This document shows positions 26,904 through 56,000 of a stretch of DNA of 64,000 nucleotides, in pieces. The notes beneath the pieces are model-generated. The model was not told the DNA's origin, made no database searches, and saw nothing but the letters and a program-made list of their open reading frames with translations. Each line of letters starts with the position of its first letter. Within the stretch, counting starts at the first letter, position 1. The DNA comes from Hydrangea macrophylla (Eukaryota > Streptophyta > Magnoliopsida > Cornales > Hydrangeaceae), in contig CM066983.1 of assembly GCA_033977485.1 (NCBI GenBank), positions 66,202,010 to 66,266,009 of the forward strand, in the 5' to 3' direction. Made by a program: the position numbers and the translations under genes.

Positions 26904-28284
26904 TGATTACGTCAAAATCAAGTTCTTATTTAACCCTATTAAAAACGTAGTATGTTGGAAGTAGGGTGTCGAGTCCACAGGGATTAGAATGTAACAATGC
27001 TTGTTGAACGCTTAATAACCAATTACCGTACAAGGAGCAACTAACAAACTAAGAAATAAAAGTGAGTCTTTTCGACTTTGAGTTTGGTTTGGTTTATAAA
27101 CAATTATACTACAATGACTATTCATCATAAAAAGAGAAAGTAAATTTAAGATAAATCTAAGTTTAATTAACAATGGAGGGTCTTGTAGTGGAGGAGAAAT
27201 TGAGGTTGGGGAGCATTCCCCCACCTTGGACCAAACAACTTATGGCTCTCATACTTGCAACACATTCTAGGGTAGAAAATTCCATTGTGACAAACTATCA
27301 AACATGTGGTAGTCAACCAACATGCTAGATAGATGTTCCAATGCAATACATGGGTATAGGGTTAGAGTTTTGAGATTTAGCAACTTCCAATGCTTGACAT
27401 GGGAAGTGGGGTCTCAAAACTTCAAACCGTACACCCATGAACTCTAGATATGCTATCAAGGGTGAGAGACCTACAATCAAAACACATGGGTCCAATGGTG
27501 GGTTTATGATCCCCAACCTACATGATTTAGCTACTCATAATTAAAATGATAACAAAATTTAAGAGAGGGAAAGAGAGATTATACCAACTAGAAAACATCA
27601 CCATTAATGCCATAGGAAATCCAAGAGATTCTTCAATTAAAAGCTTCCAAATGTGCAATACATTCACTCCTTCTTCTCTCTCTAACACTAGATGGGAGTT
27701 AATGTGGGTAGATGAGGAGTAATGGGGCATTAGAGAGGAAGAGCTTACAACCTAAGAAAAAGACTAAGTAAAATAAAAGCTAACCTAACAAAACTAATCT
27801 CTAACTATTTATACCCAATCCAAACAATGGCAAAGTTGTAAAACAAAAAGAAGGGATCTTCTGAGGCCGCGGATCGATCCGCGGCAAACAGGCGGATCGA
27901 TCCATTTATCATTTGGGGAAGCAGAATCTCTGCGCCAGAACGCGGATCGATCCCTTCACAACCGCGGATCGATCCGGGTCTTCAGGATTTGCCAGTAACT
28001 TCCTTTTAAACACGCGGATCGATCCCCTCTTTGAGCCGGATCGATCCGCCTCTTCTGAGCTTGGCTACTTGCCCCTTTTCATACCCAGATTGCCACAAAG
28101 GTTGAGTTCCACTTCACCCACGCCTACAAAACCTACAAGAAAGAGATTATTATTATGAAAAAGTGAACAACAACAAGAATAACAAAAGTGCAATTTATCC
28201 ATTAAATCTCCCCGTGTGAGTGATAATTCGTGTCCAGTAAGGGTAAAATCATAAAGTAAAAAATGCAATATTGAACACGAATCA
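26904..28284 (-). repeat. Athila 3' LTR (left copy)
   Basis: On the plus strand it runs from TGATTACGTCAAAATC to ...ACACGAATCA. It contains six GGATCGATCC palindromes at 27871-28047 and a TATA-like TATAAATAG on the minus strand near 27812. The short ORFs inside are repeated identically in the other LTR and look non-coding. Confidence 0.96.
27871..28047. repeat. GGATCGATCC palindrome array, 3 pairs (left LTR)
   Basis: The 10-bp palindrome starts at 27871, 27894, 27944, 27966, 28016 and 28038. Within a pair the spacing is 22-23 bp; pairs repeat every 72-73 bp. Intervening sequence is different in each interval, so the palindromes are more conserved than the spacers. Confidence 0.97.
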
Positions 28285-29306: not shown

Positions 29307-29344
29307 GTCAGTTTCCTCATCGAAAAAATCTTTGACTGATCGAT

Positions 29345-34981: not shown

Positions 34982-35106
34982 CAAGGATGAAGGGGGTTAG
35001 CGATCGATTAGGACTCTTTGTAGCTCTACCCGAGCAGTTAAAATGAATTTGAAATAAAGTAATTACTTTTCTGCAAAGTTCCTACTCAAGTGTTCCACCC
35101 CAGCAC

Positions 35107-35575: not shown

Positions 35576-36055
35576 TTAACAGTACTTGGGGTCCTAGCAT
35601 TCCCAAGTACTAACAGTGATCAGAGATAAATAACCCGGACGGTAAAACAGGACAAGTCCTATAATACACCGGGTATGCCTTCAAAAATAGGTCGAGAAGA
35701 CCAGGCGTTCTACCAGTTACGGTCTTAAACCATTTTGCTAAGGCAGTGTTCGGTTCGACTAAAACTGGTCAGATACTGGCAGAGGACCAATTATTCAACC
35801 GGATGCAACCCTAATCCATGTGTTAAGTGAAGGGTCTTGCAATTGAAAACTGGTTGGGGATTGGCAATCACACGGGCATGCAAGTATAAAATGTAAACAG
35901 GCAATGGAAAGGAAAGTGGCCTCAGGGGCCTTGTCATTGATTAAAAGCAGACTTGTACAGACCCTAGGGTGAGCAATTGTAGTAGCTCACCCCCCCCCCC
36001 ACAAAACAAAAAATACTACAACAGTAAAAGAAGAAAAAGAAAGGGCATAAAAGCC
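35576..36055 (+). other. Tat spacer and 3' end of antisense gene A
   Basis: No ORF. 35918-36000 resembles 39170-39245 (both 'gcctcaRGGRCCTTGT' followed by 'cattgatt' and 'actgtac' or 'cttgtac' words). Both lie just beyond the stop of an antisense gene, so this is probably its 3' UTR and terminator. A C13 run at 35989 is a G run on the gene strand. Confidence 0.6.
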
Positions 36056-38185
36056 CTACTGGTCACCCACAACGTCCAGCTCTTCCTCCGCAGCAGGAGC
36101 GGCCCCAACTGGCGCAGCCTCCGCAGGCCCCCCGCCAGCAGCCCGGTCCTCTTTCCAGTAATCGGATTCGGCCCAGGAATAGCCGGAGATATCCCAGTCC
36201 GGGTGATCCGCCGCAACACGGGCAATCAGATCCTTATAGCCCTTGAGGAATCCAGCCTCGAATTCCTCCTCGGTATCTTTCGTCTCTGCTTCAAGGGCGG
36301 CGGTCGCTTCGGACAGAGTGGCGGTCAGAGCCTCAGCATCCTTCTCGGCAGCAACCCGACCAGCCTCCGCGTCAGCAAGCTTGGCCTCTAAAGCAGCGAG
36401 CTGGGCCTCAGCAGCCGTTCGGGAAGCCCGCTCGGTTAACACCACACCTCGGGCCTCCCCCAGCTCCTGGCCCAAAGACCTAGCCTTCTCCGCCTCTGCC
36501 TCCCGGGCCGTCTTTTCCATGGAGAGGGCCTCCTCAGCAGCCGCCAGTTTCCCGGTCAGCGCGGGAAAGGTCGCCTCGGACCCCGCTGCTATACAACCGA
36601 CCTGCAAACGAAAACAGCTATAAGCATTATGAGCAAAACAAGCAATAAGCACCTATGAGAAGTACGAAATATGGACGCACCATATGGCTAATGCTGTAGA
36701 GCCAAGCGGTCACGTCCTCCGGGCTCAACAAGGAGCACTTGTCCACCTGACCCGGCAGCAGAGCGGGGCGGATCCTCCCGCGTACCTCATCCGCCCTCTC
36801 AACCGGCGGCACTGCAGGAAGCCCTGTATGCACGGTCTCCTCCACAGTAGGAAAGGAGACGCCAGCTGTTTTGGAAGCAGCAGGCGTCTTGGGGGGCACG
36901 GCAATGGTCACCCCGGGTGCCGAGGTGCCTACCCCCTCCTTGTCAGGGCGGATGACGATGCCCCGGGTGAGCCTCTTGAGCTTCTGGCCCTCGGTGGGCT
37001 CCAGCCTCTTCCTCTTTGGTCCAGCTCGGGCAAGCAGGGCCTCCTCTTTCTCCTTCAGCGCCGCCGCGTCCTTGGGAGCCATTGCTGCAAAACAGCCGGA
37101 AAGATATTAGGCCGAAAAGAAAGATGCAAGATATCAGGCCGCAAAGAAAGTTGTAAAAGGAAACAGGGGAATGAATAGAACGCTGACCGGGAACAGTAGG
37201 AGAGGAAGCAGGGACTTCTGAGGGCTCCGCGGGGGAATAAGACACCACTATGTCTCCCGTCGGGGACAGAACGTTCCGAATGTTGGTGGGCAACTGTGCT
37301 AAGCCCCGAATCCTGGTCTGGGACGCCTCGGAGATCTCAGGAATGTCTGCCGACCCAGCTGCAAGTAGAAGCATAAAACCGGTTAACAGGACAATAAATC
37401 CATAAAACCGAAAAGAGATAAACAAAAGAAAGACAGGTAGCCTTACCCCTCAGCTCCTTCACCCAGGATGTCCTCGGCCGGGTCCCCGCGGCCTCGTCAC
37501 AAAGGAGAAGGGTGGACACTTGGAAGAACTTGCTCTTCCACCCCTTGTTGTTACTGGGGCACTTGTCGATAATCTTTCTGCCCGGTCGGGCGGAGAAAGA
37601 AAAGAACCCCAGTTCCCCGTGTACGGAAAACGGCCGATGGGCCCATAGAAACTCCTCGAGGGTCACCTCACACCCGAACGCCTGGGGCCACAGAGATATA
37701 CAACCCATCAGGAATCTCCACCCGTTGGGGGCCAGTTGCCCGGGAGCAATCCCAAGGTGAATCAGGATGGCCCTGGCTACTGGGTGGAGCGGAAGGCGGA
37801 GACCTGCCATCATTGCATCCTCGAAAAGAGTCGTGAAGCCCGGATAGTAAAGGTGCGCCCCCCCGGAACTCACCGCCAAAGAACAACTACCCGGGAAGGA
37901 GTATTTCTTCCTAATCCGGATAAGGTCCTCGGAACGCAAAATCGAGAATACTGACTCACAAGCAAACCCAACGCCGGGATCGGACTCCCCGGGCGCCTCG
38001 TCGCCCAAACCCCTAGAGACGGAGGCAACGGGGGCCCCCTCGGCGGATTCGTCATCAGATTGACGGGCTGGAATCAGGCCCTCACTCTGGTGGTCAGAAG
38101 GAGGGTCCAAAATCGGGGCGGAGTCATCCGACCGGAACATCTCGCTAATCGAACGGGACGCAGAATTGAAGCCGGAATGCTCCAT
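36056..38185 (-). CDS. Tat antisense gene A, four exons, 619 residues, unknown role
   Basis: Exons on the minus strand: 38185-37447, 37358-37188, 37084-36681, 36601-36056. All three introns are GT-AG, 76-104 bp, and the phases (1, 1, 0) keep one frame to TGA at 36056; that consistency is the main support. Exon 1 holds a domain like the Pfam family named 'putative gypsy type transposon' (PF04195; HPVARAILIHLGIAPGQLAP, WRFLMGC). Exons 2-3 are Pro/Lys-rich with a basic stretch (PKRKRLEPTEGQKLKRL) that could be a nuclear signal. Exon 4 is an Ala/Glu coiled coil. Antisense extra ORFs are known in Tat elements; their function is not. It is a paralogue of the gene at 39292-40386. Confidence 0.85.
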
Positions 38186-38648
38186 CTCGGATGCCCCTGG
38201 GGAAGGAAGAGGGAGTAGGTCGCGACCTAAATACGGATCGGAAACCCCGAGCCTGAGGTACAGGGAAGGCAATGTCACTAACCTAAAAGGCAGAGCGTAG
38301 ATGGCCCTAAACGTCAGAAGGCACTCTCTCAGTGAAGCTACGGAGACGCCGGTCCGGCTCAAATGGCCTGAGTCTCCACCCGACCGGAAGAACGAGCAGA
38401 ATCTAAGGAAGAAAAAATCCCACTCCCGCTCGAACCCTACCGGATTCACTCTCTCCAGTCTCGCTACGAAAAGAAGAGAAGATGGGGAAAGGGAAGAAGG
38501 GAGCAACAGACGAAAGTTCGGAAGGAAGAGGACTTACAAAGCTTGCGCAGAAAAGAGAACTCGAGAATCTTGCTCGGACTAGCCTCTGCTCTCAGGACGT
38601 TCGGCGATCTCTCTGCAGTAAAGGGCCAGAGAAGTGGACAAGCATTCA

Positions 38649-39030
38649 TTTTATAGAAATCGGGAACGGCCCAGATCAAAACGTATCCAACGGTCCGTGT
38701 GATTCCCCGCCCGAAATTGCTGACAGTTGTCTCCTCGGGCGCATGAAACGTTGCCTAGAAAGGCGTGCGCATTAAAAGCCTGACGTGACTGTTCGGTTGG
38801 CGCGCAAGTGGCTTGGTTGCGTCCGCGCTAGCGTAGTTCGAACCTAACCAGGTCAACGACCAGCGAACACGTGGCAACAGCGACTCCCGAACCAACGGAT
38901 CTCCCGCTCGGGGAAGGCCCCGCCCGAAGGACAAAATCCCGGTCTACTACCGAACGGTTCCCTGGGAAAATTTCAGTTTTCAACCCTCATCAGACGGAGC
39001 GTCCAATCAGCTTTGAAAATGGGGGGCAGG
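38649..39030 (-). promoter_or_regulatory. Promoter copy A of the Tat antisense genes, with a ghost polypurine tract
   Basis: Similar in order and sequence to 40505-40909: 'ttttata' near 38650, 'cgggcgcatgaaacg' against 'aaaaggcgcatgcatt', and 'gacgtgact' against 'gacgtgacg'. It ends in 'gaaaatggggggcagg' (39015-39030), which matches the true polypurine tract at 40894-40909. This copy lies upstream of antisense gene A. No LTR follows it. Confidence 0.75.
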
Positions 39031-39169
39031 TGGTACGTGCACGAGCATCTCGGCGTAACCACACAGCAAGTCCACAAGGTCTATTGGATGCTGGTTGGAA
39101 TTTTGGAACCCCAACCGAACAAACCACTGTCAAAATAGAAATCGGAAGTACAATTAACGCGAAAGGGAT

Positions 39170-39240
39170 GGCCTCAAGGACCTTGTTCATTGATTTAAGA
39201 GAAACTGTACAAGTTCGGGGGGCAGTTGTAGTAGCCTCCC

Positions 39241-39278
<38 letters not shown>

Positions 39279-39291
39279 AGGACGGCAGACT
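39170..39291 (-). other. 3' end of antisense gene B, with poly(A) run
   Basis: It holds the second copy of the 3' end motif also seen at 35918-36000, next to an A tract at 39241-39276 (T tract on the gene strand). Confidence 0.6.
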
Positions 39292-40386
39292 TCAAGTGCC
39301 CTTATCCTTCAAAGCCTTGATCTCCTCCTCCAAGGCCGCCACCTTTGCCACCAGCCCCTCAACGGCGATCTCCAGAGCATGGACGTCCACCCCCCGCAGG
39401 GCGGAGTCCATCTGCAGTTCATCACCCACCTTCTCCACCGCCTGCAAGCGTTCTTCCATGTGCGCGAGAGAGACGTCCGACCATGAGCCCGGCATGCGGG
39501 GACTGGTGAACGTTTCCGTCCGGCTCCTCTTCGGTGGGGGCTGAGAATTCTCTTCGGTCTGCTTCTCCTTGCCCTTCCTGGACGGGCCCGGTGGCGGGCT
39601 TGCATCCTCAGATGAGGAGGAGTCACTGCTGGTGGACAAGGTGACCGGCCCCTCGGGCTGGCCCGTCCGGCTAGCAGGGCGCGCCCCGGTCGCCATGGAT
39701 CGGGTATAGCGCCGCGATCCAGAAGCTGCAGCGGCAGGGGTCACAGAAGAGGGACCGGCAATCTCATTCTCCGCAGGTCTCCCTTTCAAGTAGGAAAACG
39801 ACATGCCGGCCTCAATGGCTTGATTAAACGCCTCCATGTCATCCTCGGAAGGAACGACTCCACGAAGGTCGGTGAAAGCCTGTCTGCAGCGGTCGGGATT
39901 ATAATCCGCAGGGGGGGAGAGACCGTCATTCTCCAGCCAGTTACCAGCAACCAGGACCCAAGGGTACCGTTGCCAGTTCTTGTTTGGGAAATCTAGACCT
40001 CGGACTAAATCTTTTCCCTCAGTCTTAGGGCGGAAGTAGGGGCCTCCGTTGTCAATGCCCATTACGTAACACCTCGCAACATCGGCGGCCCGGAGAAATA
40101 ACCCCAGTCGCTCGTTCAACGCTGCAATCCCCCACAAGAGGCGGGCAACGTTCGGTCGGCATTTGTGTAGTGGGATATCCAATCCCTGAAGAAGGTCGCA
40201 GAATGAGACCGGCAGAGGAAAGCGTAATCCCACAATCAGCAGCAGATAGCTGCTGATGAGGAAGAAAGGATGGGCTACTTCTTCTCCCTCAATGTGTGGA
40301 CGGACTACCACGTCGTCCGGAATTTGGCAGTCCTCTCGGAAGGCTCTGAGCCCTTCGTCAGACGACAGGTCGATGTTGGAAGCCAT
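39292..40386 (-). CDS. Tat antisense gene B, single exon, 364 residues
   Basis: ATG at 40386 to stop at 39292, no break. The N-terminal ~170 residues resemble the same family as gene A ('putative gypsy type transposon', PF04195-like: SSYLLLIVGLRFPLPVSFCD, RPNVARLLWGI). A Ser/Pro-rich, probably disordered linker with a basic patch (SRKGKEKQ, PPPKRSRTE) follows, then a C-terminal coiled coil (EEIKALKDKGT). Related to gene A by domain order and by copied flanks, but without introns and shorter. The role is unknown; DNA or protein binding in the nucleus is a guess from the basic patches. Confidence 0.82.
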   Translation of the reverse strand: MASNIDLSSDEGLRAFREDCQIPDDVVVRPHIEGEEVAHPFFLISSYLLLIVGLRFPLPVSFCDLLQGLDIPLHKCRPNVARLLWGIAALNERLGLFLRAADVARCYVMGIDNGGPYFRPKTEGKDLVRGLDFPNKNWQRYPWVLVAGNWLENDGLSPPADYNPDRCRQAFTDLRGVVPSEDDMEAFNQAIEAGMSFSYLKGRPAENEIAGPSSVTPAAAASGSRRYTRSMATGARPASRTGQPEGPVTLSTSSDSSSSEDASPPPGPSRKGKEKQTEENSQPPPKRSRTETFTSPRMPGSWSDVSLAHMEERLQAVEKVGDELQMDSALRGVDVHALEIAVEGLVAKVAALEEEIKALKDKGT

Positions 40387-40504
40387 TGGGAGGAAGATTG
40401 AATTAGTATGAACAGAGGAAAAGGGGTCGGGAGTGCTTTTCTCTGAAAACCCGCTCGGTGATTATTGATCTTCAAACAGTGGTGAGTATGTAGAATGAAC
40501 TGAC

Positions 40505-40909
40505 GCTCCTTTTATAAAGACAAAGGACGGCTCAGATTGAATCAGATCGGACGGTCAGGACGTTTTCCCGCTCTTAGCGACTGACGGCTGTCACATCGGG
40601 CATACCATACACCGCCTCAAAAGGCGCATGCATTAAATGCACGACGTGACGGTTTAGTCCCAACGCAAACGGTTCGGTTACCTCCACGATGGCTTCGTCA
40701 CATCCCAACCAGGCCTGCAAGCAACTGACACGTGGCCCTGGATAATACCGGACCCTCCAGTCACCCGCTCGGTCCCGGAAAGACAACCCCGGGTCAGCCT
40801 TACCTCGGGGAAGGCCTCGGCCTCTTCCCGAGCGGTTTCTCGTGAATAGCTCTGATTTCCAAACCTCATCCGATATGGCATCCAATTAGCTCTGGAAATG
40901 GGGGGCAGC
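40505..40909 (-). promoter_or_regulatory. Promoter copy B of the Tat antisense genes and Tat polypurine tract
   Basis: The region upstream of antisense gene B contains 'ttttataaaga' (about 40510), with TTTATAAA readable on either strand. It ends in 'ggaaatggggggcagc' (40894-40909), the polypurine tract abutting the 3' LTR at 40910. Confidence 0.75.
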
Positions 40910-41504
40910 TGATAGGCTCAGAATTATCCAGCGTGGGTCCAACGGCCACGTCAGCATCGAAGACCAAGCAGAACCCTGGGGTCCACACCCAGGGCTTGCC
41001 AGCGTCACCGCTCGGGATGCCTGCACAGCCCGGGCGTGACCTTCGGCGGCTCTCCCGGACACGCGGCTCATCTCCAGCAGTCTCCTTGTGCGGCCAGAGC
41101 CCTATTAGGAATGAAACTCGATAAATTCCTAATCTGATAGGGATCTTCCCTTAACTTATGCACATCGAATTGTGATTGATATAGGCTTCCTAATGTATCT
41201 AAGTTTCCATGTAGAGGTGGACTCTTGCATCTATAAAAGAGCCCACCCATACCCTTCTAAGGGGGGAACGATCTTGAGAAACCTAATAACTAGAGCATAC
41301 ACTGAAACGCATATACCCGGACGGTATTACTGGTAGTGCCGCCCACCATTGTTGGCTCACCAGGCCGCCGGTGATCTGCTAGTATAGCGCCTAGACGCAC
41401 ACGTGGACGTAGGTCACCTCATTAACGGGGCCGAACCACATACAACTCCTTGGTGTTTCTCTGTCTCTCTTTTAATCCTCTCTTACCAATTCTAGGCACC
41501 ATCA
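40910..41504 (+). repeat. Tat element 3' LTR
   Basis: 595 bp, no difference from 28689-29283 found by eye. The TATA box is at about 41232. Confidence 0.96.
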
Positions 41505-43082
41505 ACAACTATCAAGACAATGGCAACGCTTTCATAATCCGAATTTCGTTCAAAACGCGCTTCAACTCAATTCTCACCGGTATTACACTCTAAAAATGAA
41601 TCACTCGGAATGGGTAATACACTCGGGGCATGCGGGTAAAAGAGTAATGGAAATAGGAATCAAAACCACGCACATGCCAATGATGAAAAACGTAAGCGTG
41701 AAAAACGAGTAAAAATAATCTCATGAAAGATATCATTCACTAGAGGATGTGAAATAACTCAAACTACTTGTCATGATCGTCTCAAACTCTGAATCACAAA
41801 ACTTAAGAATCAATTAGGTCCTTGAGGGGGTTGAAAAGTGGGAAAGAGATATGATGTGAAGGACAAGGGGAAATGAAGTGCGATGATTGGGCACAAGCTT
41901 GGGATTAATTTGAAATGCATGAATACAAATGACCGTAAGAGATGAATCTTTCACAAATGCTCTTTGAAGCTCCAAAAAGAAGTACAATTGACTCTTAGGC
42001 TTTTTTTTTTTTTTATTTTTTAGGAAAGAGTCTTTTCTCTTCTTTTCCTTGTACTCTCACAACAACACGATTCAATCTCTTTTACGACTTTACAAATCCG
42101 ATCTCATGCAAAGACATCCCAAGAATGTAGTCCAAATGCGCATATGGAAGGTGTATGGTTAAGTGAATGAAGGGTATGTGTGGTTGAGGTCAGAAATGGT
42201 GAAAAAGACCAAAAATCAATTCCTCGGACAATGTGATTCTTTATTCTCCACTACAATGACAAGCAAGCATGAGTTTTTCATTCCACAAGATGACTCCTCT
42301 AATGAACAATCAACGCAAGAAAATGAGATTATCAACGACTTTTGTATGTTTTTCAAAAAGGAGAGAATTGAAGTATGCAACACTCAACAATGGAGATAAG
42401 GATCAAAATCTCACACAGGTAAAGTCTCCACAAATGTTTTGAACGATTTCTGGGTGACAATCGCATTAAGCGTCATCCTAACACATGTAGTCATGCAACG
42501 TGCTTAATAATCCAAGATTTGAAATTCATGCAATTCACTATAATCAAGATAGTTATAGAACTAAGGGGATTACCAAGTGTCACATACTAATATCAGAAGA
42601 AAATTTCAAGATAGGTGTCATCGCTCGGCATTAGAAAGAGACAATTATACTGAAATCATTGGAGACACAAGATAATGCACAAAAATTTTTTTTTTTTTTT
42701 TTTTTTTTACAAAGGAAATCCAAGTATGAGAGAAGCTAGAAAGCTCTCACACCCCCCAACTAGGACTGAACATTGTCCTCAATGAGATAATTAAGTGCAA
42801 GGAGAAGAACAATATTACCGGAGGCAAGGACAGGGAGCGGCCGGTAATAAACTGTGCCTGCAAGGTTAGAATCACCCGAGAAAGAGAAAGAAAAAGGAAA
42901 AGAAGCAGTTGACATGGCAAAAAGGAGAGGGAAATAAGCAACGCCAATGGTCAACAAAAAGAAACAATATCCATACATCCATACTGAAGTAGCCCAAAGT
43001 CACAAAGCAAAACAGAAAATGACATCATCCATACTAAAATAAGAGAACAGAAAGCATCATCAAAACAAAACCAACCCCCCAA
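41505..43082 (-). other. Athila 3' non-coding region, proximal part
   Basis: About 1.6 kb between ORF3 and the Tat insertion site. No ORF is supported. T/A runs at 42001-42014 and 42690-42708. The polypurine-like word CACCCCCCAACTA (plus strand) occurs at about 42751 and, as AACCCCCCAACTA, at 43073, resembling the true tract at 28285. Confidence 0.65.
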
Positions 43083-44366
43083 CTACTCATCATCATCCCC
43101 CTCATCACCACCAAAAGGATCGGAACCACCGGTGCCGCCATAAGCACCGGAGCCACTGGCGCCACCAAAAGCACCTGGACCGCCGGAACCGCTGTAGGGG
43201 TCCGAACCACCATAACCCCCAAAGCCGCCTGCACCACCAAGACCGGCTGCTCCACCATAGGGATCTCGAAAGTAATCCGGGACATCTGCACCCGGGTACT
43301 GCATACGGAAAGAGTCAGTCTGGAACCGCATCATCATGCTGATATCCCGTCGATAGCTCATGCTGAACCCATCGAACTCTCCCCGCAGGCTACGGACATC
43401 ACTCCGTATGCCGGCAATCTCCTCTCCCTGCTGCCTCTGCTCAGTACTCATCGTCTCGAAGCGACGATGCAGATCGACCATGCCAGGTGCGTAAACCGGC
43501 TCCTCCTCCTCTGCGGCAGCCTGAGCACCAGACGGTCCCTCCGCTACTCTAGCTCTCTTGGACGCAGATCTAACCTGTGCGTCGCTACGAGCGATCGTCG
43601 TCCCATCGATTGGAGACGGCGCTGGCTTGAGGACATCAGTCGCTAGGGCATCGCACCCATGTGAGGTGCAAAGCCGGGTGACAAGGGTAGGAAATGGGAG
43701 ACTGGAAGTGGCACCTGTGTCGTTAGACGCCGCTATCATGAGGTAAATGATGGTGCTCGCGAGGTCAACCCGTGCGGTGGGATCGGTAATAGCGTACAGG
43801 AGGGTACCGTGATCCCCCCTGACAGTCTTGTGGCGAGTGGGCCACACCGCTGCGGTGACAATGATATTACAGCACCGGTAGAGCTTGGTGAATGTGGAAG
43901 GGGCAATCTGGTCCCCGATCCACTCAGCTGGTCGTCCCGTGAAGCGGGTAGCGTAGGTATCGTAATGAGGCCGCTGCTCCTGATCCTCCAGGTACGGCTC
44001 GGGGTTCTCCTCATGAGGAACCCCCATGAAAACGGCCAAAGTAGCCGGGGTAACCTGGATACGGACACCCCGAACATATGCCTCAAAGGTGCGAGTGCCA
44101 GTGGTGACTATGCTGGCGAAGAAAATCCTAACCCAAGTCTCATTGTACCCTCCTGAATGCTCCAACTGGGGGATCCAGCGACGTCTCCTAAAGATCTGGA
44201 CGACATCGTCCGGGAAATCGAAGATGGCGATGGGTCGCTCAGGGAGGATGGACTTTTTGGTTTTAAAGAAATTCACGAACCACTGCTTCTCAGTTTTGGA
44301 CCTAAAGCGATCATAGCCGCGGGCCGGAGAACACTCGGTTTTGTCATACTTAAGTGGATTCGCCAT
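43083..44366 (-). CDS. Athila ORF3 ('env-like' position), 427 residues
   Basis: The chosen ATG is 44366 (MANPLKYDKTE). It is preceded on the minus strand by TTATTTGCAG, a good splice acceptor, so a spliced subgenomic RNA is likely. The longer open frame to 44675 is probably intron. The N-terminal ~260 residues resemble the plant 'putative transposon protein' family common in Athila (WVRIFFASI, TPATLAVFMGVPHEE, RLCTSHGC). A coiled-coil segment (~310-360) follows, then a Gly/Tyr-rich tail (GGYGGSDPYSGSGG) and an acidic end. Athila ORF3 is often called env-like, but I see no signal peptide or membrane segment in this product. No break is seen. The function is unknown. Confidence 0.85.
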   Translation of the reverse strand: MANPLKYDKTECSPARGYDRFRSKTEKQWFVNFFKTKKSILPERPIAIFDFPDDVVQIFRRRRWIPQLEHSGGYNETWVRIFFASIVTTGTRTFEAYVRGVRIQVTPATLAVFMGVPHEENPEPYLEDQEQRPHYDTYATRFTGRPAEWIGDQIAPSTFTKLYRCCNIIVTAAVWPTRHKTVRGDHGTLLYAITDPTARVDLASTIIYLMIAASNDTGATSSLPFPTLVTRLCTSHGCDALATDVLKPAPSPIDGTTIARSDAQVRSASKRARVAEGPSGAQAAAEEEEPVYAPGMVDLHRRFETMSTEQRQQGEEIAGIRSDVRSLRGEFDGFSMSYRRDISMMMRFQTDSFRMQYPGADVPDYFRDPYGGAAGLGGAGGFGGYGGSDPYSGSGGPGAFGGASGSGAYGGTGGSDPFGGDEGDDDE

Positions 44367-45596
44367 TGTGCCTGCAAATAACAAGAGCAAGTGCAACCAA
44401 TAAGATGGTAAAATCGACGCTAATGAATTGCCCAAGACAAAAGACATGAGAACCTTAGGAATACAGGCAGAATGCACGGGGATGGACACGATCGCACGTG
44501 CACGGTCGACATGCAGGGAAATGGTCGAGCGGCGCGTGCCACAACTCTCGAAATTTACGGTGAAAACTGCCCACGAAAATGAAGTCATATGCCTAAAATG
44601 GGAAATTAAGAACAATGCACGTGACGGTTTGAAAAATGCACGGGTGGATTGGATGTATGCACGGAGGGATTCCAATGTGGCATTCTGTCGAACACCTTGT
44701 GGGCAGGGTGAAAACGTTAAAAGTTTAACAAGATGTGATACATGGATCTATCCCAAACAAACCACAATGTGGCTTGAGCATGCAACACAACCAATTAGCA
44801 AGAGGTAACAACCCAAAATACAGAGAAAAGGGCGAGAAATGAGCCCTAAGGTTGAAGTTTTCAATATAGTGAGCAATGAGTAACTAAACACAACCTAGGG
44901 TGTAATCATCCTCTACATATGAAAATTAATCAATGAGCGATGATAAAAACATACCTTGGATGAATGGCAAGGGAGATCTTGAAAATGGAAAAACACAGGG
45001 GGAGATTGGAGAAGTTAGGGCAAAGAGGGTTGAGAGAGTTTGAGAGAGTGTTTGAAATTTTTTTTTTTTTTTTTTTTTTAAAACAAATGGATAGCCTCGG
45101 CAGATTTAAGCTGAACTGCCCCCCGCGGATCGATCCGAAGTCAGGCCGGATCGATCCGATATTTTAAAACGTTATTAATGTACCTTTTTGAAAAGGCGGA
45201 TCGATCCGCTTGAAAAGCCCGGATCGATCCATTTAACTCAAACTCTCGCAGAATGTTTCTCCAAGTTCGCGGATCGATCCGCTCAAAAGCCCGGATCGAT
45301 CCATTTAACTCAAACTCTCGCAGAATGTCATCTCAAATTCCCGGATCGATCCGCTCAGTAGGCCGGATCGATCCGGTCTTTCCCAGCTTGGTCAATAAGA
45401 TCCCCAGAAACATGCGGATCGATCCCCCAATTCCTCGGATCGATCCGCCCCTTGTGCTACTTGGATTTGGACCTTGAAAATTCTTATTAAAAAGGGAAAA
45501 GATCACAATGGATGTAATGGACAAGTGCAAGAACAAAAATTTATGCCAAGAATGTAACATGGGGCATACAAAAAGAAGAGTATAGCTCACTAGAGC
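44367..45596 (-). other. Athila pol-ORF3 spacer, with probable intron and palindrome array
   Basis: Non-coding on the minus strand. It contains the GGATCGATCC array (45127-45446), a T run at 45060-45079 and the acceptor before ORF3 at about 44372. Predicted role: leader or intron of the ORF3 transcript. Confidence 0.7.
45127..45446. repeat. GGATCGATCC palindrome array, 5 pairs (pol-ORF3 spacer)
   Basis: The palindrome starts at 45127/45148, 45198/45221, 45271/45293, 45343/45365 and 45416/45437. The spacing within a pair is 21-23 bp, and pairs repeat every 71-73 bp. Flanks of pairs 2 to 4 also share 'atttaactcaaactctcg', so local duplication contributed. The periodicity matches the LTR array although the spacer sequences differ. 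Confidence 0.97.
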
Positions 45597-48500
45597 CTAC
45601 TCACCCCTAACATTGGGGTCCTCCAAAGGAATTGACACCAACTCGGTGTCGAAACCTTCGAGAAAAGGTTTGAGCCGTTGCCCATTAACCTTAGAAATTG
45701 TCCCATTTGCGGGATCTTGAATATCAACGGCGCCATGGTTATACACTTTGTGCACAATGTAAGGGCCAATCCAACGGGATTGCAACTTACCCAGAAATAG
45801 ATGGAGCCTTGAATCGTACAAAAGCACCTTGTTACCCACCACAAAATGCTTACGCACAATGTGTTTGTCATGGAAAGCTTTAGTGCGTGCTTTATAAACC
45901 TTTGAACTCTCGTAGAGTTCACCCCGAATCTCTTCCAACTCGTCAAGTTGGAGTTTCCGTTTCTCACCACTCTCATCAATGTCGAAATTGAGTTTCTTAA
46001 TTGCCCAATAAGCTCGATGCTCAAGTTCGACGGGCAAATGGCAAGCTTTCCCGTAAACCAAACGATAGGGGGACATTCCTAAATTTGTCTTATAGGCCGT
46101 CCTATACGCCCATAGCGCATCGGTTAGCCTAGTAGACCAATCCTTCTTTGACGGATCAACCGTCTTTTCTAGGATTCCCTTAATTTCCCTATTGGCCAAT
46201 TCGGCTTGGCCATTGGTTTGGGGATGATACGTGGTGGAAACTTTGTGGGTGACGCCATATTGCTCCATTAACCGAGCAAAAGGGGAATTGCAAAAGTGCA
46301 CCCCTTGATCACTAATTATGGCTTTTGGAGTGCCAAATCGGGACAAAATATGTTCCTTAAGGAATTTCAATACCACCTTGTGGTCATTGGTCCGTGACGG
46401 TATGGCCTCAACCCACTTGGAGACGTAGTCAACCGCCACCAAAATGTACTCAAAATTATTGGATTTAGGAAAAGGACCCATGAAGTCTATACCCCAACAA
46501 TCAAAAACTTCAATAACGAGAACGGGGTTTAGAGGCATCATGTTCCTCCGGGTAACTTTTCCGAGAAGTTGGCACCGAGGGCATGCTTTACAATAAGCAT
46601 GTGCGTCTTTAAATATAGTGGGCCAATACAAACCGCTATGGAGCACTTTGAACGCGGTCTTTTGTGAAGAGAAATGACCTCCACAAGCTTGATCGTGGCA
46701 AAACGATAACACACTTGGTATCTCGTCGTTGGGCACACATCTCCTCACGATTTGATCGGCACAATACTTAAACACATAGGGATCGTCGTAAAAGAACGAT
46801 CGTGCCATCACTATAAGTCTCTCTCGGTCTGTGACAGACCACTCTTGAGGTAACTCTCCCGTGACAAGAAAATTAACTACGTCCGCATACCACGGGAGAG
46901 TAGAGACTTTGAGCAATTGCTCGTCCGGAAAGCATTCCCGGATAGGGATGGGGTCTATATGATCATGATCAAATGTCAATCGTGACAAATGATCAGCTAC
47001 CACATTTTCCACCCCTTTCTTATCCTTGATGGATATGTCAAATTCTTGTAGCAATAGAATCCAACGAATGAGCCGCGCTTTAGCATCTTTCTTGGAGAAG
47101 AGATACTTAAGGGCGGCGTGATCGGTAAAGCAAATTATCCGCGATCCTACCACATACGACCGGAACTTCTCAAGAGCAAAAACTATGGCGAGTAACTCTT
47201 TCTCCGTCGTGGAGTAGTTGATTTGAGCATCATCTAAAGTGCGGCTCGCATAGCATATAACATGGGGCTTTTTGTCTTTTCTTTGCCCCAAAACGGCTCC
47301 GATGGCATAATCACTCGCGTCGCACATTAATTCGAATGGAAGACTCCAATCGGGAGGTTGCATAATTGGTGCGGACGTGAGTAATGCCTTGAGCTTCTCA
47401 AATGCTTCTTGGCAATCCTTGGACCACTCGAAAGGGATGTCCTTAGCTAAGAGGAGACACAACGGTCTCGAGATCGCGCTAAAGTCTTTTATAAACCTGC
47501 GATAGAAACCTGCGTGGCCCAAGAATGACCTAATGTCTTTGAGATTCCTAGGAGGGGGGAGGTTGGAAATGACATCAATTTTGGCTTTGTCAACTTGCAT
47601 TCCCTCGCTAGACACAATGTGGCCCAGTACAATCCCTTGTGTCACCATGAAGTGGCACTTTTCCCAGTTAAGAACGAGATTCTTTTCTATACATCTCTTG
47701 AGAACCTTCTCGAGATTCCCAAGACATTCATCGAACGAATCTCCAAAGACTGTGAAGTCATCCATGAAGACTTCCAAATATTTCTCCACCATATCACTAA
47801 AGATACTAAGCATGCACCTTTGAAAGGTCGCTGGTGCATTGCAAAGTCCAAAAGGCATCCTCCGATAGGCAAACGTGCCAAAGGGGCAAGTGAAGGTGGT
47901 TTTTTCTTGGTCCTCGGGGGCTATTTCAATTTGGTTGTACCCCGAGTAACCATCTAGGAAGCAGTAGTGCTTGTGGCCCGCCACTCTTTCTAGGACTTGA
48001 TCAAGGAAGGGCAAAGGGAAATGATCCTTTCTTGTGACCGAATTTAGCTTCCTATAATCAATACACACACGCCACCCCGTGGTGGCTCTAGTGGGGACCA
48101 ACTCTCCACTCTCATTCTCAATGACGGTAATCCCTGACTTCTTAGGGACCACTTGGGTGGGGCTCACCCATTCACTATCAGAGATGGGATAGATTATCCC
48201 CACATCCAACAACTTGATGACTTCCGCCATCACCACCTCTTTCATATTCGGATTGAGCCTCCTTTGCATTTGACGTGAAGGCTTGGCTTCATCCTCTAGA
48301 TAAATCTTGTGGGTGCAAATCTTCGGAGAAATGCCCCTCAAGTCCGCTATGCACCACCCTATGGCACTTTTGTGTTCCTTCAAGACCTTCATCAATCTCC
48401 CTTCTTGACAAGGGTCAAGTTGGGACGACACCACTACCGGAAAACTCTCGCTCTCTCCCAAAAAGGCATACTTGAGCTCACTTGGCAAGGTTTTGAGCTC

Positions 48501-49778
48501 AAGTTTGGGTATGACAACATTAGATGGAAGAGGGAAAGTATCCCTCGGAGGTAATCTTTCGAAGTTAGAGGTCCACATGGCCTCTTCGATAATTCGCTCA
48601 ACACTCGCCTCTTCCTCATCCTCTATCTCCTCATCTCTCATCTCGTTCTCTCGCGCAAACTCGTGAACACACTCAACAATAGCATTATCACTATTCAAGC
48701 ATTTCTCAACATGTTCGATGCTAGTTATGTTGTCATTAAGCACATAAGTATGATCAAGAGAAGAAGTGATGCAAGAATCATTAACATCGGAATCACTAGA
48801 AAAATTGAAACAATCTTGCACCAATGAATCAATGAGAGAGATTTCATAAATTTCATCACCGTCCTTCTCATCGAGATCCGGTTGCTTAAAGAGAGAGAAG
48901 ATATTTACATCCACAGTCATGTTTCCAAAAGTTAAGCGCATGAGACCATTCCTACAATTGATTAAGGCATTAACAGTAGCAAGGAAGGGCCGCCCTAAGA
49001 TGATTGGAATTTGTGATTGCTCATTGACCACGGGTTGCGTGTCAAGCACGATAAAATCCACCGGATAGTAGAAGTTACCAACTTGAACAATGACATCTTC
49101 TATAATGCCCCGTGGCATCTTAACGGATCGATCGGCCATTTGTAAGGTGACACGGGTCTCCTTAAGCTCTCCTAGGCCCAACTGGACATACACCGAATAC
49201 GGAAGAAGATTTACACTAGCACCCAAATCAAGGAGGGCTCGGTCTATGTGGTGTTGTCCAATCACACATGCTATGGTAGGACAGCCGGGGTCCTTGTATT
49301 TGGGTGGAACTTCGTTAAGGATAACGGAGCTCGCATGTGCGGCCATGTAGGCACTCTTTTTGACGTTAAGCTTCCTTTTAACTGTGCAAAGATCCTTGAG
49401 GAATTTGGCATAGGCCGGAACTTGTTTAATGGCCTCTAAAAGAGGTATGTTGATTTCCACTTTGTTAAACAATTCCAAGAATTCATGATTCTTGTTGTTC
49501 TCGACCTTCTTTTTGAGCCTTTGAGGGAATGGTGGAGCGGGATTCAAAAATTCTTGATCCATGAAGTCGGGGACTTTAGGAACATCCTCTTCCAGCTCCA
49601 AGTCAATAGGGGACGACGAGTCCCCCTCTTCGAGTTCGGCTTCAACTCTAACTGGGTGGATTTGTGGTTCTTGAGAAGGCTTTTGGACCTTGTTATCCAC
49701 GGTTTTTCCACTACGAAGAGTAGTGACTCCCTTTAGATGTTCAACGGGACCATTGGAATTGGAGGCCCCACCATTCAT
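45597..49778 (-). CDS. Athila pol: protease, RT, RNase H, integrase, 1393 residues
   Basis: Open from 49778 to 45597, with first Met [10 protein letters not shown]. Protease has the Athila-type [10 protein letters not shown] (residue ~183). Reverse transcriptase has FMDD in [11 protein letters not shown] (~669). RNase H carries [12 protein letters not shown] and [10 protein letters not shown]. Integrase has a zinc finger (GGHFSSQKT...CPRCQLLG) and core [27 protein letters not shown] (~1097-1210). The end is EDPNVRGE. No stop or frameshift is visible within it. It is in the same frame as gag and separated only by a TAA 18 codons upstream, so it could be made by readthrough. If not, this copy depends on other Athila copies. 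Confidence 0.94.
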
Positions 49779-49832
49779 TTGCCCTTTAGGATTTTGGAAG
49801 GGTTGTGCGGGGAGCTTTCCCTTATCAACTAC

Positions 49833-51485
49833 TTATTGATTTTGGAGCAATTGAGCCAATTGAGCTTGTAAAGCTTGCATTGATTGAGCGTGCGATGATT
49901 GCATCGCTTGTATGGATTGCTCAAGTTGGCTCATTCTTTGGGACAAGCCATGATTATGGTCCTCGAAATTTTTCTTGTGAGGAGGCACATAAGTGGGTGG
50001 AGGTTGTTGTCCCCCTTGATTTTGCACAAAAGGGGGTCCTTGGGATTGAGATACGGGAGCACCAAAATTTTGAGGTGCATACGGTGGTGGGGGTGGTTGA
50101 TGCGGGCAAAATTGTTGTGCAGAGACATGGGGAGCAACACTCACCCCTTTGTTATTATGGTAGTTAAGTCCCGGTGCCGACCACCTCCCGGGAGGATTGT
50201 AGGCATCATTTTGGGAAGGATTATATCTAGGCCTAACATTCATCCCAAGTGCACACGCTTGCTCCAAAGCTTGGTTTTGAACTAGAGGAAGAATGGGGCA
50301 CTCGTTGGTTGAGTGCTCCGGAGCATAGCAAAGGTAGCAATGTGACGGATTGACCGGGGCAAGGATTGGGGGAAGAGTGGGAGTCATGGTGACCTTTTGA
50401 GACTCCAAGGCTTCCACTTTCCTAGTGAGTTCCGAAATGGAGTCGGCCTCACTTGGCCCTTGGAAGGGATTATGGTTCAATGGGGCCACGGTAACCGGCA
50501 AGGTTCGGTCATGAGGGTTAGATGCACCCCAACCGCGAGAAGTTTCATAAACGTATTCAAGATGAGCCTCGGCTTGCTCGGCCTCAAGAGTCAAGAAACT
50601 CCCGGCACACATGGTTTCGATTAACTGCTTGGTATTGGGTTGTAACCCCCCATAACAAATGGAAATTTGACGGAATTTGTCGAAACCATGGTGTGGGCAT
50701 TTCCTAAGGAGATCCTTAAATCTCAACCAACACTCGGCAAAGGTTTCATGTTCTCCTTGGGAGAAATTTTGGATTTGTTTAACCAATGCTTGAGTTTTGT
50801 GCATGGGGAAAAACTCCTTATAGAATTGCTTTTGCAGTTCCGGCCATGAGCCTATGGAATTTGGAGGTAGGGTCACCAACCAATCTTTTGCCCTATCCTT
50901 GAGGGAAAATGTGAACAATTTGAGCCTTATGAGCTCGGGTGTGCATCTTTGTTGTTCAAATGTCCCACATATGTCCTCATACTCCCGAATATGCTTGTAG
51001 GGGTCCTCGTTCTCTCGCCCATGAAAGTTGGGTAAGAGATTGATCATTCCTGGTTTAAATCGAAACACCCCTGCATTGTACGGGAATGTTATGCAAGATG
51101 GGGAAGACACGGTCTCGGGTTGAAGGTAATCCCCGATCGTTCTCCCAAAGGTTTGATCCATTTGAGGAGGTGGAGGGGCATAAGGATGTTGATAAGGAGG
51201 TGGTTGATGCGGCGGATACCTAGGTGGAGGAGCGGGATTATGTTGATCCCATTGCTCCCGATGGAATCGATCCATGGGAGTTTCGTCCTCGGTGGCAAAC
51301 GTGGCATGATCCGAAAATGCATCAACTACCGGCTCTCGGTGGCTGGTACTGTGCGAATTTTGAGTGAATGATGGTGAGGATGTGGTAGGGGGCCGCCAAA
51401 ACGACCCACTACTACTACTAGAAGAACTGACATTAGAATTCACTGCAAAGGGATTAGTCATACCTGCGTTGCTCGGATTGGACAT
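49833..51485 (-). CDS. Athila gag, 550 residues
   Basis: ATG at 51485 to TAA at 49833. A Ser/Pro-rich N-terminus (residues ~15-115) precedes retrotrans-gag (~150-300; LKDRAKDWLVTLPP, SFLTLEAEQAEAH) and a zinc-knuckle-like CYLCYAPEHSTNEC (~395). A Gln/Pro-rich region and a short coiled coil at the end (MSQLEQSIQAM, LQAQLAQLLQNQ) follow. In Athila elements I know, gag and pol form one frame; here a TAA follows CAA and the frame continues into the expected gag-pol linker. Confidence 0.93.
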   Translation of the reverse strand: MSNPSNAGMTNPFAVNSNVSSSSSSSGSFWRPPTTSSPSFTQNSHSTSHREPVVDAFSDHATFATEDETPMDRFHREQWDQHNPAPPPRYPPHQPPPYQHPYAPPPPQMDQTFGRTIGDYLQPETVSSPSCITFPYNAGVFRFKPGMINLLPNFHGRENEDPYKHIREYEDICGTFEQQRCTPELIRLKLFTFSLKDRAKDWLVTLPPNSIGSWPELQKQFYKEFFPMHKTQALVKQIQNFSQGEHETFAECWLRFKDLLRKCPHHGFDKFRQISICYGGLQPNTKQLIETMCAGSFLTLEAEQAEAHLEYVYETSRGWGASNPHDRTLPVTVAPLNHNPFQGPSEADSISELTRKVEALESQKVTMTPTLPPILAPVNPSHCYLCYAPEHSTNECPILPLVQNQALEQACALGMNVRPRYNPSQNDAYNPPGRWSAPGLNYHNNKGVSVAPHVSAQQFCPHQPPPPPYAPQNFGAPVSQSQGPPFVQNQGGQQPPPTYVPPHKKNFEDHNHGLSQRMSQLEQSIQAMQSSHAQSMQALQAQLAQLLQNQ

Positions 51486-51613
51486 TGTGCAAAGCTGTTG
51501 AGTTTCACCTAAAGGCTACTCCTTCAAAGACACTCAACACGAAAGCAACGACGGTTAGAAGTAAAAGCACTATAATTGGATACTAAGCGACCTAAGGTTG
51601 TTACCAACGCCAA

Positions 51614-51631
51614 TCCCCGGCAACGGCGCCA
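51614..51631 (-). promoter_or_regulatory. Athila primer-binding site
   Basis: On the minus strand TGGCGCCGTTGCCGGGGA lies three bases after the 5' LTR end. This is the tRNA-Asp-type site typical of Athila. Confidence 0.92.
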
Positions 51632-51634
51632 TTT

Positions 51635-53015
51635 TGATTACGTCAAAATCAAGTTCTTATTTAACCCTATTAAAAACGTAGTATGTTGGAAGTAGGGTGT
51701 CGAGTCCACAGGGATTAGAATGTAACAATGCTTGTTGAACGCTTAATAACCAATTACCGTACAAGGAGCAACTAACAAACTAAGAAATAAAAGTGAGTCT
51801 TTTCGACTTTGAGTTTGGTTTGGTTTATAAACAATTATACTACAATGACTATTCATCATAAAAAGAGAAAGTAAATTTAAGATAAATCTAAGTTTAATTA
51901 ACAATGGAGGGTCTTGTAGTGGAGGAGAAATTGAGGTTGGGGAGCATTCCCCCACCTTGGACCAAACAACTTATGGCTCTCATACTTGCAACACATTCTA
52001 GGGTAGAAAATTCCATTGTGACAAACTATCAAACATGTGGTAGTCAACCAACATGCTAGATAGATGTTCCAATGCAATACATGGGTATAGGGTTAGAGTT
52101 TTGAGATTTAGCAACTTCCAATGCTTGACATGGGAAGTGGGGTCTCAAAACTTCAAACCGTACACCCATGAACTCTAGATATGCTATCAAGGGTGAGAGA
52201 CCTACAATCAAAACACATGGGTCCAATGGTGGGTTTATGATCCCCAACCTACATGATTTAGCTACTCATAATTAAAATGATAACAAAATTTAAGAGAGGG
52301 AAAGAGAGATTATACCAACTAGAAAACATCACCATTAATGCCATAGGAAATCCAAGAGATTCTTCAATTAAAAGCTTCCAAATGTGCAATACATTCACTC
52401 CTTCTTCTCTCTCTAACACTAGATGGGAGTTAATGTGGGTAGATGAGGAGTAATGGGGCATTAGAGAGGAAGAGCTTACAACCTAAGAAAAAGACTAAGT
52501 AAAATAAAAGCTAACCTAACAAAACTAATCTCTAACTATTTATACCCAATCCAAACAATGGCAAAGTTGTAAAACAAAAAGAAGGGATCTTCTGAGGCCG
52601 CGGATCGATCCGCGGCAAACAGGCGGATCGATCCATTTATCATTTGGGGAAGCAGAATCTCTGCGCCAGAACGCGGATCGATCCCTTCACAACCGCGGAT
52701 CGATCCGGGTCTTCAGGATTTGCCAGTAACTTCCTTTTAAACACGCGGATCGATCCCCTCTTTGAGCCGGATCGATCCGCCTCTTCTGAGCTTGGCTACT
52801 TGCCCCTTTTCATACCCAGATTGCCACAAAGGTTGAGTTCCACTTCACCCACGCCTACAAAACCTACAAGAAAGAGATTATTATTATGAAAAAGTGAACA
52901 ACAACAAGAATAACAAAAGTGCAATTTATCCATTAAATCTCCCCGTGTGAGTGATAATTCGTGTCCAGTAAGGGTAAAATCATGAAGTAAAAAATGCAAT
53001 ATTGAACACGAATCA
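51635..53015 (-). repeat. Athila 5' LTR (right copy)
   Basis: 1381 bp, matching 26904-28284 at a fixed offset of 24,731 with one difference noticed (52984 G against 28253 A). Confidence 0.96.
52602..52778. repeat. GGATCGATCC palindrome array, 3 pairs (right LTR)
   Basis: The exact counterpart of the array at 27871-28047, in the other LTR. Confidence 0.97.
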
Positions 53016-53020
53016 ACAGG

Positions 53021-56000
53021 GTTTTAAGACAGATGAGGAAAACACAAGCTAACATCACTATCTGGGGACTGCTGATCGCCTCCAAAAAACACAGGCAGGC
53101 AGTCTTGGATGCTTTAAACCAATCCGATGTCTCTATCGATACAGCACCGGAAGACCTCGTGGGGATGATCAGTAGAATCCCGGCTCTAGCTATTACCTTC
53201 TCGTCCGACGACCTACCTCCCGGAGGGCCCGTGCATAACAAGCCTTTGTATGTCACCGTCAAATGCTTGGGTCTGTTGCCTGCCTGTCTGGTGGACAATG
53301 GATCAGCCTTAAACGTGTGCCCATTTTGAACTGTCAATCGCATGGGTTTGGACGAATCAACTTTCATACCATCTGAGCAAAGGGTGAGAGCGTACGACAA
53401 CACTCAGAGAACTGTCATGGGCATAATTCTCCTTCACCTCGCTATCGGTCCACTTGAGAAGGAGGCCGAATTTCAGGTCATCGACATTCCTGCATCCTTC
53501 AACCTGCTGCTTGGAAGGCTATGGTTAGACAGTTTGGGCGCCATACCATCAACAATCCACCAGAAGGTCAAATGTGTTTGGAAGAGCAGGGTCTGTGACA
53601 TTCTCGGGGATAGCTGGGTTCATCCGTCTGAAGCTTCATCAAGCGCACCGGTCTTAGAGGCACAGCTGCAAGAAGAGGAGACAGGTTTGGGGGGATTCGA
53701 GTTCATTAACATGCTGGAAGAGGGAAAGCCGCGAGAGTTCCTACCGCTTTATTTTGATCAATACGCCAGTCCGTTGGTCACAGGGATAATGAAAAAGATG
53801 GGTTTCTTCCCGGGCATGGGATTGGGTAAAAATCATCAAGGCCTGCCTGAATTCCTGCGCATTCTGAGTCAGACTCACTCTCATGGTTTGGGTTACCAGC
53901 CAACAAAGGAGGAATTGAGGGCAAAGAAGAAGACAGCTAACGCGCCAATGGACCCCTATCAGAAAACACTCAACGGGTACTTCGTAAAGGAAGGAGAAGA
54001 TTTCCCCTTCTGTGGCTTCCCGAAGCCGTGGATGGATCAGAAAGGCAAATGTCTAAAGCCAGGGTTCGAGATCTTTTTTTCCCATGAGTTCTCTAAGTAC
54101 AAAGACCCATTTTTGCAAATACCTGAAAAGTCTGCTACAGTTGGCGATTGGATTGGTGTACTGGACGGACCGGTCATGCATAACCTGTTGAGCGAAAAGG
54201 GGGTAAAAGACGAAGGGAAAGGAAAGGAAGACAAGGGTCTGGAGGTCAAGGCTGAAGAAGGGTATGTTGAGGATGTATTGGAAGAGGAACCAGAGGAAGA
54301 ATCAGTGGAAAAGCCGGGGAAAGAAGAAGTGGAAGTGATTACCAAAACAGAGAATCTGGAAGAATGCTTCATCACCGACAAGGGAGGGGAAAGCAAGAAA
54401 GAATGGGTCTTTGAGTCTAGTGATAGGTATCCCCCACCCCCGGAGTCTGTAATGGCCCAAATGAGGCGTCTTTCAATTTCTATGTCTGTTGTAATTGCTC
54501 CAAAGAAAATGAATGAAAATGTGACTGATTCTGCCTACTCGAATGCGCTTAATGAATGTGATGAATATGATGATCATGAAATACCAATTGAATTGCAAAA
54601 ATTTATTGAAAAAGAAAAGGAACCTGCATGTAAAGTCATCGAAGACACTCGAACAATTAATCTGGGAAGTAAAGACAACCCTCAAAATGTTTTTATTGGC
54701 TCAACACTTAGCAATGAAGAAAGCGAAGAGCTAATCAATCTATTAAATGAATTCAAAGACGTTTTTGCATGGTCTTATAGCGATATGCCAGGAATTGATC
54801 CAAAAATCGTCCAACACCATATCCCCCTATTTCCAAATTTTAAACCAATAAAACAAAAGTTGAGGCGAATGAGGCCTGAATGGGCACTTAAGGTAAAAGA
54901 GGAGGTTGAAAAGCAATTAGGGGCCGGATTCTTGATGGTCACCGAGTATCCAGATTGGATCGCCAATATAGTACCGATTCCGAAAAAAGATGGTCGTGTT
55001 AGGGTATGCGTGGATTTCCGAGATTTGAATAAAGCAAGCCCTAAGGACGATTTTCCATTACCTCACATTGATGTTCTGGTCGATAATACGGCAGGTCACG
55101 AGCTCCTATCTTTCATGGATGGCTTCTCAGGTTATAACCAGATCCTCATGGCACCCAAGGAAAGAGAGAAAACCACTTTCATCACGCCCTGGGGGACATA
55201 TTGTTATAGAGTGATGCCATTCGGTCTTAAGAACGCAGGCGCGACCTATCAGAGGGCTGCCACCACTTTACTGCACGACATGATCCACAAAGAGGTAGAG
55301 GTGTATGTGGATGACATGATTGTGAAATCCAAGGAAAGAGGAGGACACCTAGGGGCTTTGAGGAAGTTCTTTGGGAGGTTGAGGGAGTTCAAAATGAGGC
55401 TAAACCCGCAAAAATGCACCTTCGGAGTCACTACTGGAAAATTATTAGGGTTTCTCATCACTCAAAGAGGAATAGAGGTGGACCCCACCAAAATAAAAGC
55501 CATAACCGAAATGAACCCGCCTAAAAATGAGAAAGAACTGAGGGGATTTCTGGGGAGGGTACAGTTCATTAGCCGCTTCATTTCCAAACTTACCTTAACC
55601 TGCGACCCACTGTTCAAACTACTCTGAAAAGGAGAGAAGTTTGAATGGGACGCCCCTTGCCAACAAGCCTTCGACAAAATCAAAACCTACCTCCAAAACC
55701 CACCTGTCCTGTCACCACCTTCACCCGGGAGACCCCTGTTACTTTATCTCTCTGTGTCCGAAAATTCGATGGGGTGTATGTTGGCCCAAGAAGGAGAAGA
55801 AGGTCACGTGAAAAAAGCCATTTACTACTTGAGCAAAAGAATGGTCGGATATGAGTTAAAGTATTCACCCTTGGAAAAGGCCTGTTGGGCCTTGGTTTAG
55901 TGTACCTGTCGCCTTCGCCACTACATGCTAGCCTTCCCTGTAATCCTGATATCCCGAATGGACCCATTAAAATACATATTCGAAAAGCCTGTCTTGACCA

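Follow-up and report, generated by a model that had tools for sequence, protein, structure and literature searches.

A Sirevirus-like arrangement of palindrome arrays in an Athila-type element of Hydrangea macrophylla, and a centre possibly shared with arrays nearby

Results

The window analysed here, a 64,000-nt stretch of the Hydrangea macrophylla genome, carries an Athila-type Ty3/gypsy element whose parts are listed in Table 1. Assignment to the Athila lineage is supported by the order of the pol domains (protease, RT, RNase H, integrase) and by an extra ORF after pol, ORF3, which in a domain search matched PF20167 ('putative plant transposon protein'). The primer site TGGCGCCGTTGCCGGGGA, which we take to be the tRNA-Asp site of Athila, directly follows the 5' LTR, and the best 120 of 7933 pol relatives are plant retroelement proteins. 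In Ty1/copia elements the integrase precedes RT; here it comes after RT and RNase H, which places the element outside the Sireviruses (Ty1/copia). Alignment of the two LTRs revealed a single differing position (99.93% identity). This near-identity points to a recent insertion and thus to a young copy, so that the arrays described below should look as they do in a lineage that is active, with little imprint of post-insertion decay.

A nested LTR element (plus strand, 28689-41504, Ty3/gypsy order, duplication ACAAC) sits between ORF3 and the 3' LTR; it has an unbroken gag-pol frame of 1881 aa and two loose clusters of CGG-armed inverted repeats (35116-35178 and 38119-38349). An RT frame with a G-patch domain at 53330-55627 belongs to the element into which the Athila-type element inserted. 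Elsewhere in the window, MuDR DNA-binding and MULE transposase domains are found in a pair of adjacent frames separated by a stop (3541-5793), and a 276-bp unit is repeated in tandem about four times with 79% matches (103-1267).

Table 1. Features of the Athila-type element and ATCGAT arrays in the window (splice sites are predicted from sequence; a slash marks the exon-intron junction)
Feature	Position	Strand	Remarks
Athila-type Ty3/gypsy element	LTRs at 26904-28284 and 51635-53015	-	flanking target duplication ACAGG on both sides
5' LTR	51635..53015	-	1381 bp, TG...CA, one mismatch to 3' LTR over 1381 positions
U3 array, 5' LTR	52602..52778	-	six GGATCGATCC words
TATAAATAG of 5' LTR	52536..52544	-	57 nt downstream of array (distance measured on 3' LTR)
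gag frame	49833..51515	-	PF03732, E 1.4e-21
pol frame	45597..49832	-	protease, RT, RNase H, integrase; Ty3/gypsy order
Spacer array, pol-ORF3	45127..45446	-	ten GGATCGATCC words
Candidate splice donor AAG/GTATGT (the GT)	44954..44955	-	172 nt past spacer array
Candidate acceptor TTTGCAG/GCACAATGG	44371..44373	-	44371 is first exon base
ORF3 from likely ATG	43083..44366	-	427 aa; PF20167; relative P0121 begins at same residue
3' LTR	26904..28284	-	1381 bp
U3 array, 3' LTR	27871..28047	-	six GGATCGATCC words; LTR positions 238-414 of 1381
TATAAATAG of 3' LTR	27805..27813	-	begins at LTR position 472, 57 nt past last word
ATCGAT array	15120-15265; ATCGAT cluster 15123-15253		6 centres; TCAATCGATTGA-type words; palindromes of at least 12 bp 4/6
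ATCGAT array	15768-15949; ATCGAT cluster 15771-15944		5 centres and 3 ATTAAT; TCAATCGATTGA-type words; palindromes of at least 12 bp 2/5
ATCGAT array	22880-22990; ATCGAT cluster 22884-22981		6 centres; TTCRATCGATYGAA-type words; palindromes of at least 12 bp 3/6

An exact search of the window yielded 22 copies of GGATCGATCC in three arrays (6 + 10 + 6), the same numbers that the first-pass annotation had given for the two LTRs and the spacer, while shuffled windows contained 0.03 copies on average and none of 100 shuffles reached 22. Because the two LTRs are nearly identical, these amount to 16 independent words. All ten internal copies lie between pol and ORF3, and a window scan allowing up to 2 mismatches detected no decayed variants (1-2 mismatches) inside the three arrays. 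Short start-to-start spacings are 23, 22 and 22 bp in the LTR and 21, 23, 22, 22 and 21 bp in the spacer; long ones are 50 and 50 bp and 50, 50, 50 and 51 bp, respectively. Pairs therefore recur every 71-73 bp, as had been noted together with a 21-23 bp distance within pairs, and no word deviates by more than 1 bp from a 22/72-bp lattice. The accompanying reading of two helical turns roughly fits the 22-bp step but does not extend to the 50- and 72-bp steps: with 10.5 bp to the turn, neither is a whole number of turns, and the pairs do not all lie on one face of the helix. On the sense strand of the element a G follows 16 of the 16 words whereas a C precedes only 10, which makes GGATCGATCCG the preserved word rather than a strictly symmetric 12-mer. 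The CGG-CCG signature CGGATCGATCCG is present in 10/16 independent words, and the other 6 retain one full arm.

The U3 array aligns to the last three spacer pairs in the same order and orientation (69.8% over 192 columns), and the two arrays are homologous. With linkers aligned individually, words agree at 60/60 and linkers at 71/130 positions (70/126 in an alternative register). The contrast corresponds to about 2e-16 if sites are independent, a figure that is optimistic since the search for words was exact and the alignment is anchored on them, although the lack of decayed words inside the arrays backs it. Linker homology between the arrays is modest: among eight LTR-spacer comparisons of long linkers the best two gave z 2.8 and 2.4 at positions that fit one register while the rest ranged from -1.5 to 1.9, and in the outer flanks of the arrays homology was marginal, with 53 and 35 of 1000 shuffles equally good. 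The six long linkers are 40, 40, 40, 40, 40 and 41 bp long though mostly diverged; over their 15 pairs mean ungapped identity was 0.43 compared with 0.27 for shuffled sequence, a mean that includes one duplicate pair (0.82). Two spacer long linkers match at 36/39 aligned positions, which indicates a recent duplication of a 72-bp unit in the spacer array. Thus the earlier statement that intervening bases differ in most intervals holds for the other long linkers and not for these two, whereas the view that words and phasing are more constrained than the rest is borne out by the conserved words and spacing next to diverged linkers. The homology of the arrays and the duplicated unit would also suit a neutral tandem repeat, with a 72-bp unit multiplying by duplication, one array arising as a copy of the other, and functionless words. 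Such a unit should lose its words as fast as its linkers, contrary to the agreement seen here and the absence of decayed words, and even with the caveat of exact search and anchoring we regard this explanation as improbable.

Both arrays are rich in CpG. Observed/expected ratios are 1.36 for the U3 array against 0.23 and 0.56 for the two remaining parts of the LTR, and 1.55 for the spacer array against 0.24 and 0.00 for its non-coding flanks, 0.70 for gag-pol and 0.90 for ORF3. In a CpG-island scan (200 bp, G+C ≥ 0.5, ratio ≥ 0.6) the U3 and spacer arrays pass, as do five further, mostly coding stretches between 42995 and 51484.

We also considered a function in RNA, where the palindromes would fold in the transcript for packaging or dimerisation or would mark the origin of host small RNAs. 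Predicted folding of the two arrays is stronger than that of shuffled sequence (z -7.34 and -5.65), but repeated palindromes always fold strongly and such scores cannot separate RNA from DNA function; an Rfam scan gave zero matches at gathering score. PMC5311732, in the available part, describes palindromes in LTR regulatory regions as hotspots of small-RNA mapping for the three maize Copia families that it examined. However, pairing does not call for a single palindrome across all 16 words, and the U3 array lies upstream of the TATA motif, so that a transcript from the promoter of the 5' LTR would not include it. RNA pairing or dimerisation, offered in the first-pass annotation as one option, requires partner words that match each other rather than 16 identical palindromes and explains less than a DNA site does; of the alternatives weighed here, the RNA reading is given the lowest probability.

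On the sense side the spacer array is followed by an A-run of 22, a pyrimidine-rich stretch and then the candidate donor, where AGGTANGT has its sole occurrence on the sense strand of 41505-53015. The candidate acceptor lies 5 nt before the ORF3 ATG; the leader has two more acceptor-like sites, at 44592 and 44566. No ATG is found between the spacer array and the candidate donor, so that after a 44954 to 44371 splice the ATG of ORF3 would come first. A donor at this place would be most useful with a transcription start just upstream, from which we infer a putative internal promoter. Two observations stand against it: the 150 nt downstream from the end of the spacer array contain no TATAWAW, and there are rival acceptors, one of which (44592) has a better pyrimidine tract.

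ORF3 itself was considered as the binder of the words. PF20167 is its sole domain match, and no DNA-binding family was found. A structure model was too poor to use (mean pLDDT 36), comparison with the PDB produced no informative match and weak ones to the tail alone, and a protein search found nothing at E 0.001, with a restricted search returning a single relative. ORF3 as word binder thus gained no supporting evidence from domain, structure model or PDB searches.

ATCGAT is the centre of GGATCGATCC, and further ATCGAT arrays lie at 15.1, 15.8 and 22.9 kb of the window, with symmetry less perfect than that of the Athila words. All 4096 hexamers were scored for clusters in the window (at least 4 copies, gaps of at most 100 bp). 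AAAAAA formed 14 clusters, TTTTTT 8 and ATCGAT 6, with no other hexamer above ATCGAT; with the LTRs counted once, ATCGAT has 5 and is tied with TATATA, AATAAA and AAAAAT, and the pattern was noticed post hoc in this single window. Clusters hold 39/55 ATCGAT copies, and no ATCGAT cluster appeared in 60 shuffles. The array at 22.9 kb lies 22 nt upstream of a minus-strand TATAAATAG, in LTR-like sequence adjoining a broken copia integrase frame. On that strand the window has TATAAATAG three times, once in each Athila LTR and once here. Position 24581, a TSD/CA candidate, was rejected as the boundary of this LTR-like stretch as there is no integrase continuation beyond it. The arrays at 15.1 and 15.8 kb are about 500 bp apart; TATA-like words lie about 60 nt off on both sides of the 15.8-kb array, and none lie within 150 nt of the 15.1-kb array.

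A search of genome contigs by pol returned three plant-like contigs filed under bacterial assemblies, which are probably plant contamination. Two of them, L004 and L005, are Athila-type sequences in Geminicoccus harenae and Solirubrobacter sp. assemblies; being 99.7% identical over 9013 bp, they were counted as one relative next to L006. In the contig sequence obtained, where LTRs are not among the identified parts, all three have no GGATCGATCC, no ATCGAT cluster and at most one CGG-armed inverted repeat. An array downstream of pol is absent in these two distant relatives and is therefore not general in the group. PF20167 was not found in the five frames scanned (two of L005, three of L006), and the array may accompany ORF3, as Sirevirus linker copies accompany the envelope-like gene, though two relatives are too few to judge. 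After the related pol of L006, a frame at 1736-2347 matches Viral_NABP (PF05515, E 4.2e-08) and weakly Carla_C4; it could encode a nucleic-acid-binding protein of virus type at the place that ORF3 might occupy. Viral contigs searched by pol and by pol alignment gave no relative. A motif search of viral contigs led to three loci, taken for phage or prokaryotic DNA, which were discarded as family copies as each has one word pair and no array in the stretches examined.

Discussion

According to the available parts of PMC2829016, 13 Sireviruses carry palindromic RM boxes in 8-32 copies with a CGG-CCG signature in all but Tnd-1; 92% of LTR copies lie in the upper LTR half, 97% of those in the linker precede the envelope-like gene, and the clusters form CpG islands with the TATA averaging 37 bp after the island. 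The first-pass annotation had found the layout to match no known Athila feature. If this is read as nothing comparable being known, it does not stand, because the RM boxes share the layout: palindromes with CGG...CCG arms in many copies, CpG-rich and far better kept than their flanks, with a U3 array in the upper LTR half upstream of the TATA and further copies before an envelope-like gene. With ORF3 counted as a putative envelope-like gene, signature, upper LTR position before TATA, position upstream of ORF3 and CpG islands are all found here, and the ten spacer words and six per LTR fall inside the Sirevirus copy-number range. There are also differences. RM is called Sirevirus-specific relative to classic Ty1/copia elements, whereas the element described here is Ty3/gypsy; strict pairs on a 22/72-bp lattice go without mention in those parts of the paper; and in several Sireviruses RM clusters are the only CpG islands while the Athila-type element has others. 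The Tnd-1 box ACAATCGATTGT is the sole Table 3 entry with an ATCGAT centre and lacks CGG arms. An internal promoter of Sireviruses is supported in the same source without one being identified (Bousios et al. 2010).

A second parallel is found in the VANDAL DNA transposons, which likewise have short tandem motifs in non-coding parts, kept as the repeats change (PMC5735166 and PMC10398659, in excerpt). By analogy, a protein of the element, ORF3 or another, might bind the arrays and strip silencing marks as VANC does at VANDAL motifs. VANC targets are dense short motifs of the same orientation that grow by tandem repeat formation, and the 72-bp duplication in the spacer array would fit such growth. 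VANDAL proteins, however, bind a non-palindromic 9-base motif. The domain search of ORF3 gave no DNA-binding family, and ATCGAT arrays are present outside the Athila-type element too. An anti-silencing platform of this kind thus has a low probability in our view. The arrays elsewhere in the window argue for a host factor rather than ORF3 as the binder. Among plant proteins, LBD (AS2/LOB) factors are said, in the available parts of PMC10118128 and PMC7178066, to form dimers that tell palindromic DNA targets apart, the half site being rich in G+C. That half site is GCGGCG and not CGGATC, and it would leave the arrays lacking CGG arms unexplained; LBD factors are a lead only and a poor fit.

A search of the literature on palindromes or internal promoters in Athila, weak and with subscription papers largely missing, brought up only PMC2829016 to the point among the matches listed. 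Exact GGATCGATCC occurs in 63 papers; among the 20 matches listed no title concerned plant retroelements, and its occurrences are taken for primers or cloning sites.

The array is real and non-random and probably functional as a cis-regulatory element. With slightly better than even confidence, we propose that the words are sites for a dimeric transcription factor, most likely host-encoded, and that the U3 array regulates the LTR promoter and the spacer array an internal promoter of ORF3. Dimers of this factor would bind the palindromic words, the U3 words would act as the upstream regulatory array of the LTR promoter, and the homologous spacer array would regulate an internal promoter from which ORF3 gets a spliced mRNA of its own. 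Regular spacing could let adjacent dimers act together, and selection would be the reason for the identity of the words. This proposal is supported by the position of the U3 array upstream of the TATA, by CpG richness, preserved words and lattice, by the candidate splice sites of the ORF3 leader, by the Sirevirus parallel and by the other ATCGAT-centred arrays in the window, one of them close upstream of a TATAAATAG. A strict dimer symmetry does not predict the one-sided invariant G, which speaks against the dimer reading. The further CpG-island-like stretches of the element and the two distant relatives that have no array after pol also count against the proposal. The earlier idea of a multi-site platform is retained in as far as preserved words and spacing and a layout shared by two non-coding parts fit it; for ORF3 as its protein the searches gave no evidence.

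The arrangement is a known one that occurs here in a different superfamily, and the neighbouring arrays may have their centre in common. A wider reading, which we offer as speculative and hold to be rather unlikely as a whole, is that several unrelated mobile-element promoters in this plant genome independently built ATCGAT-centred palindrome arrays via one host factor, and that the second array of the Athila-type element is an internal ORF3 promoter of a kind that the Ty1/copia Sireviruses reached separately. That two unrelated superfamilies carry matching arrays of palindromes in the same pair of positions makes the idea of an internal promoter directly testable, which bears on how the envelope-like genes of plant retroelements are expressed, and the common ATCGAT centre would provide a concrete bait for the host factor.
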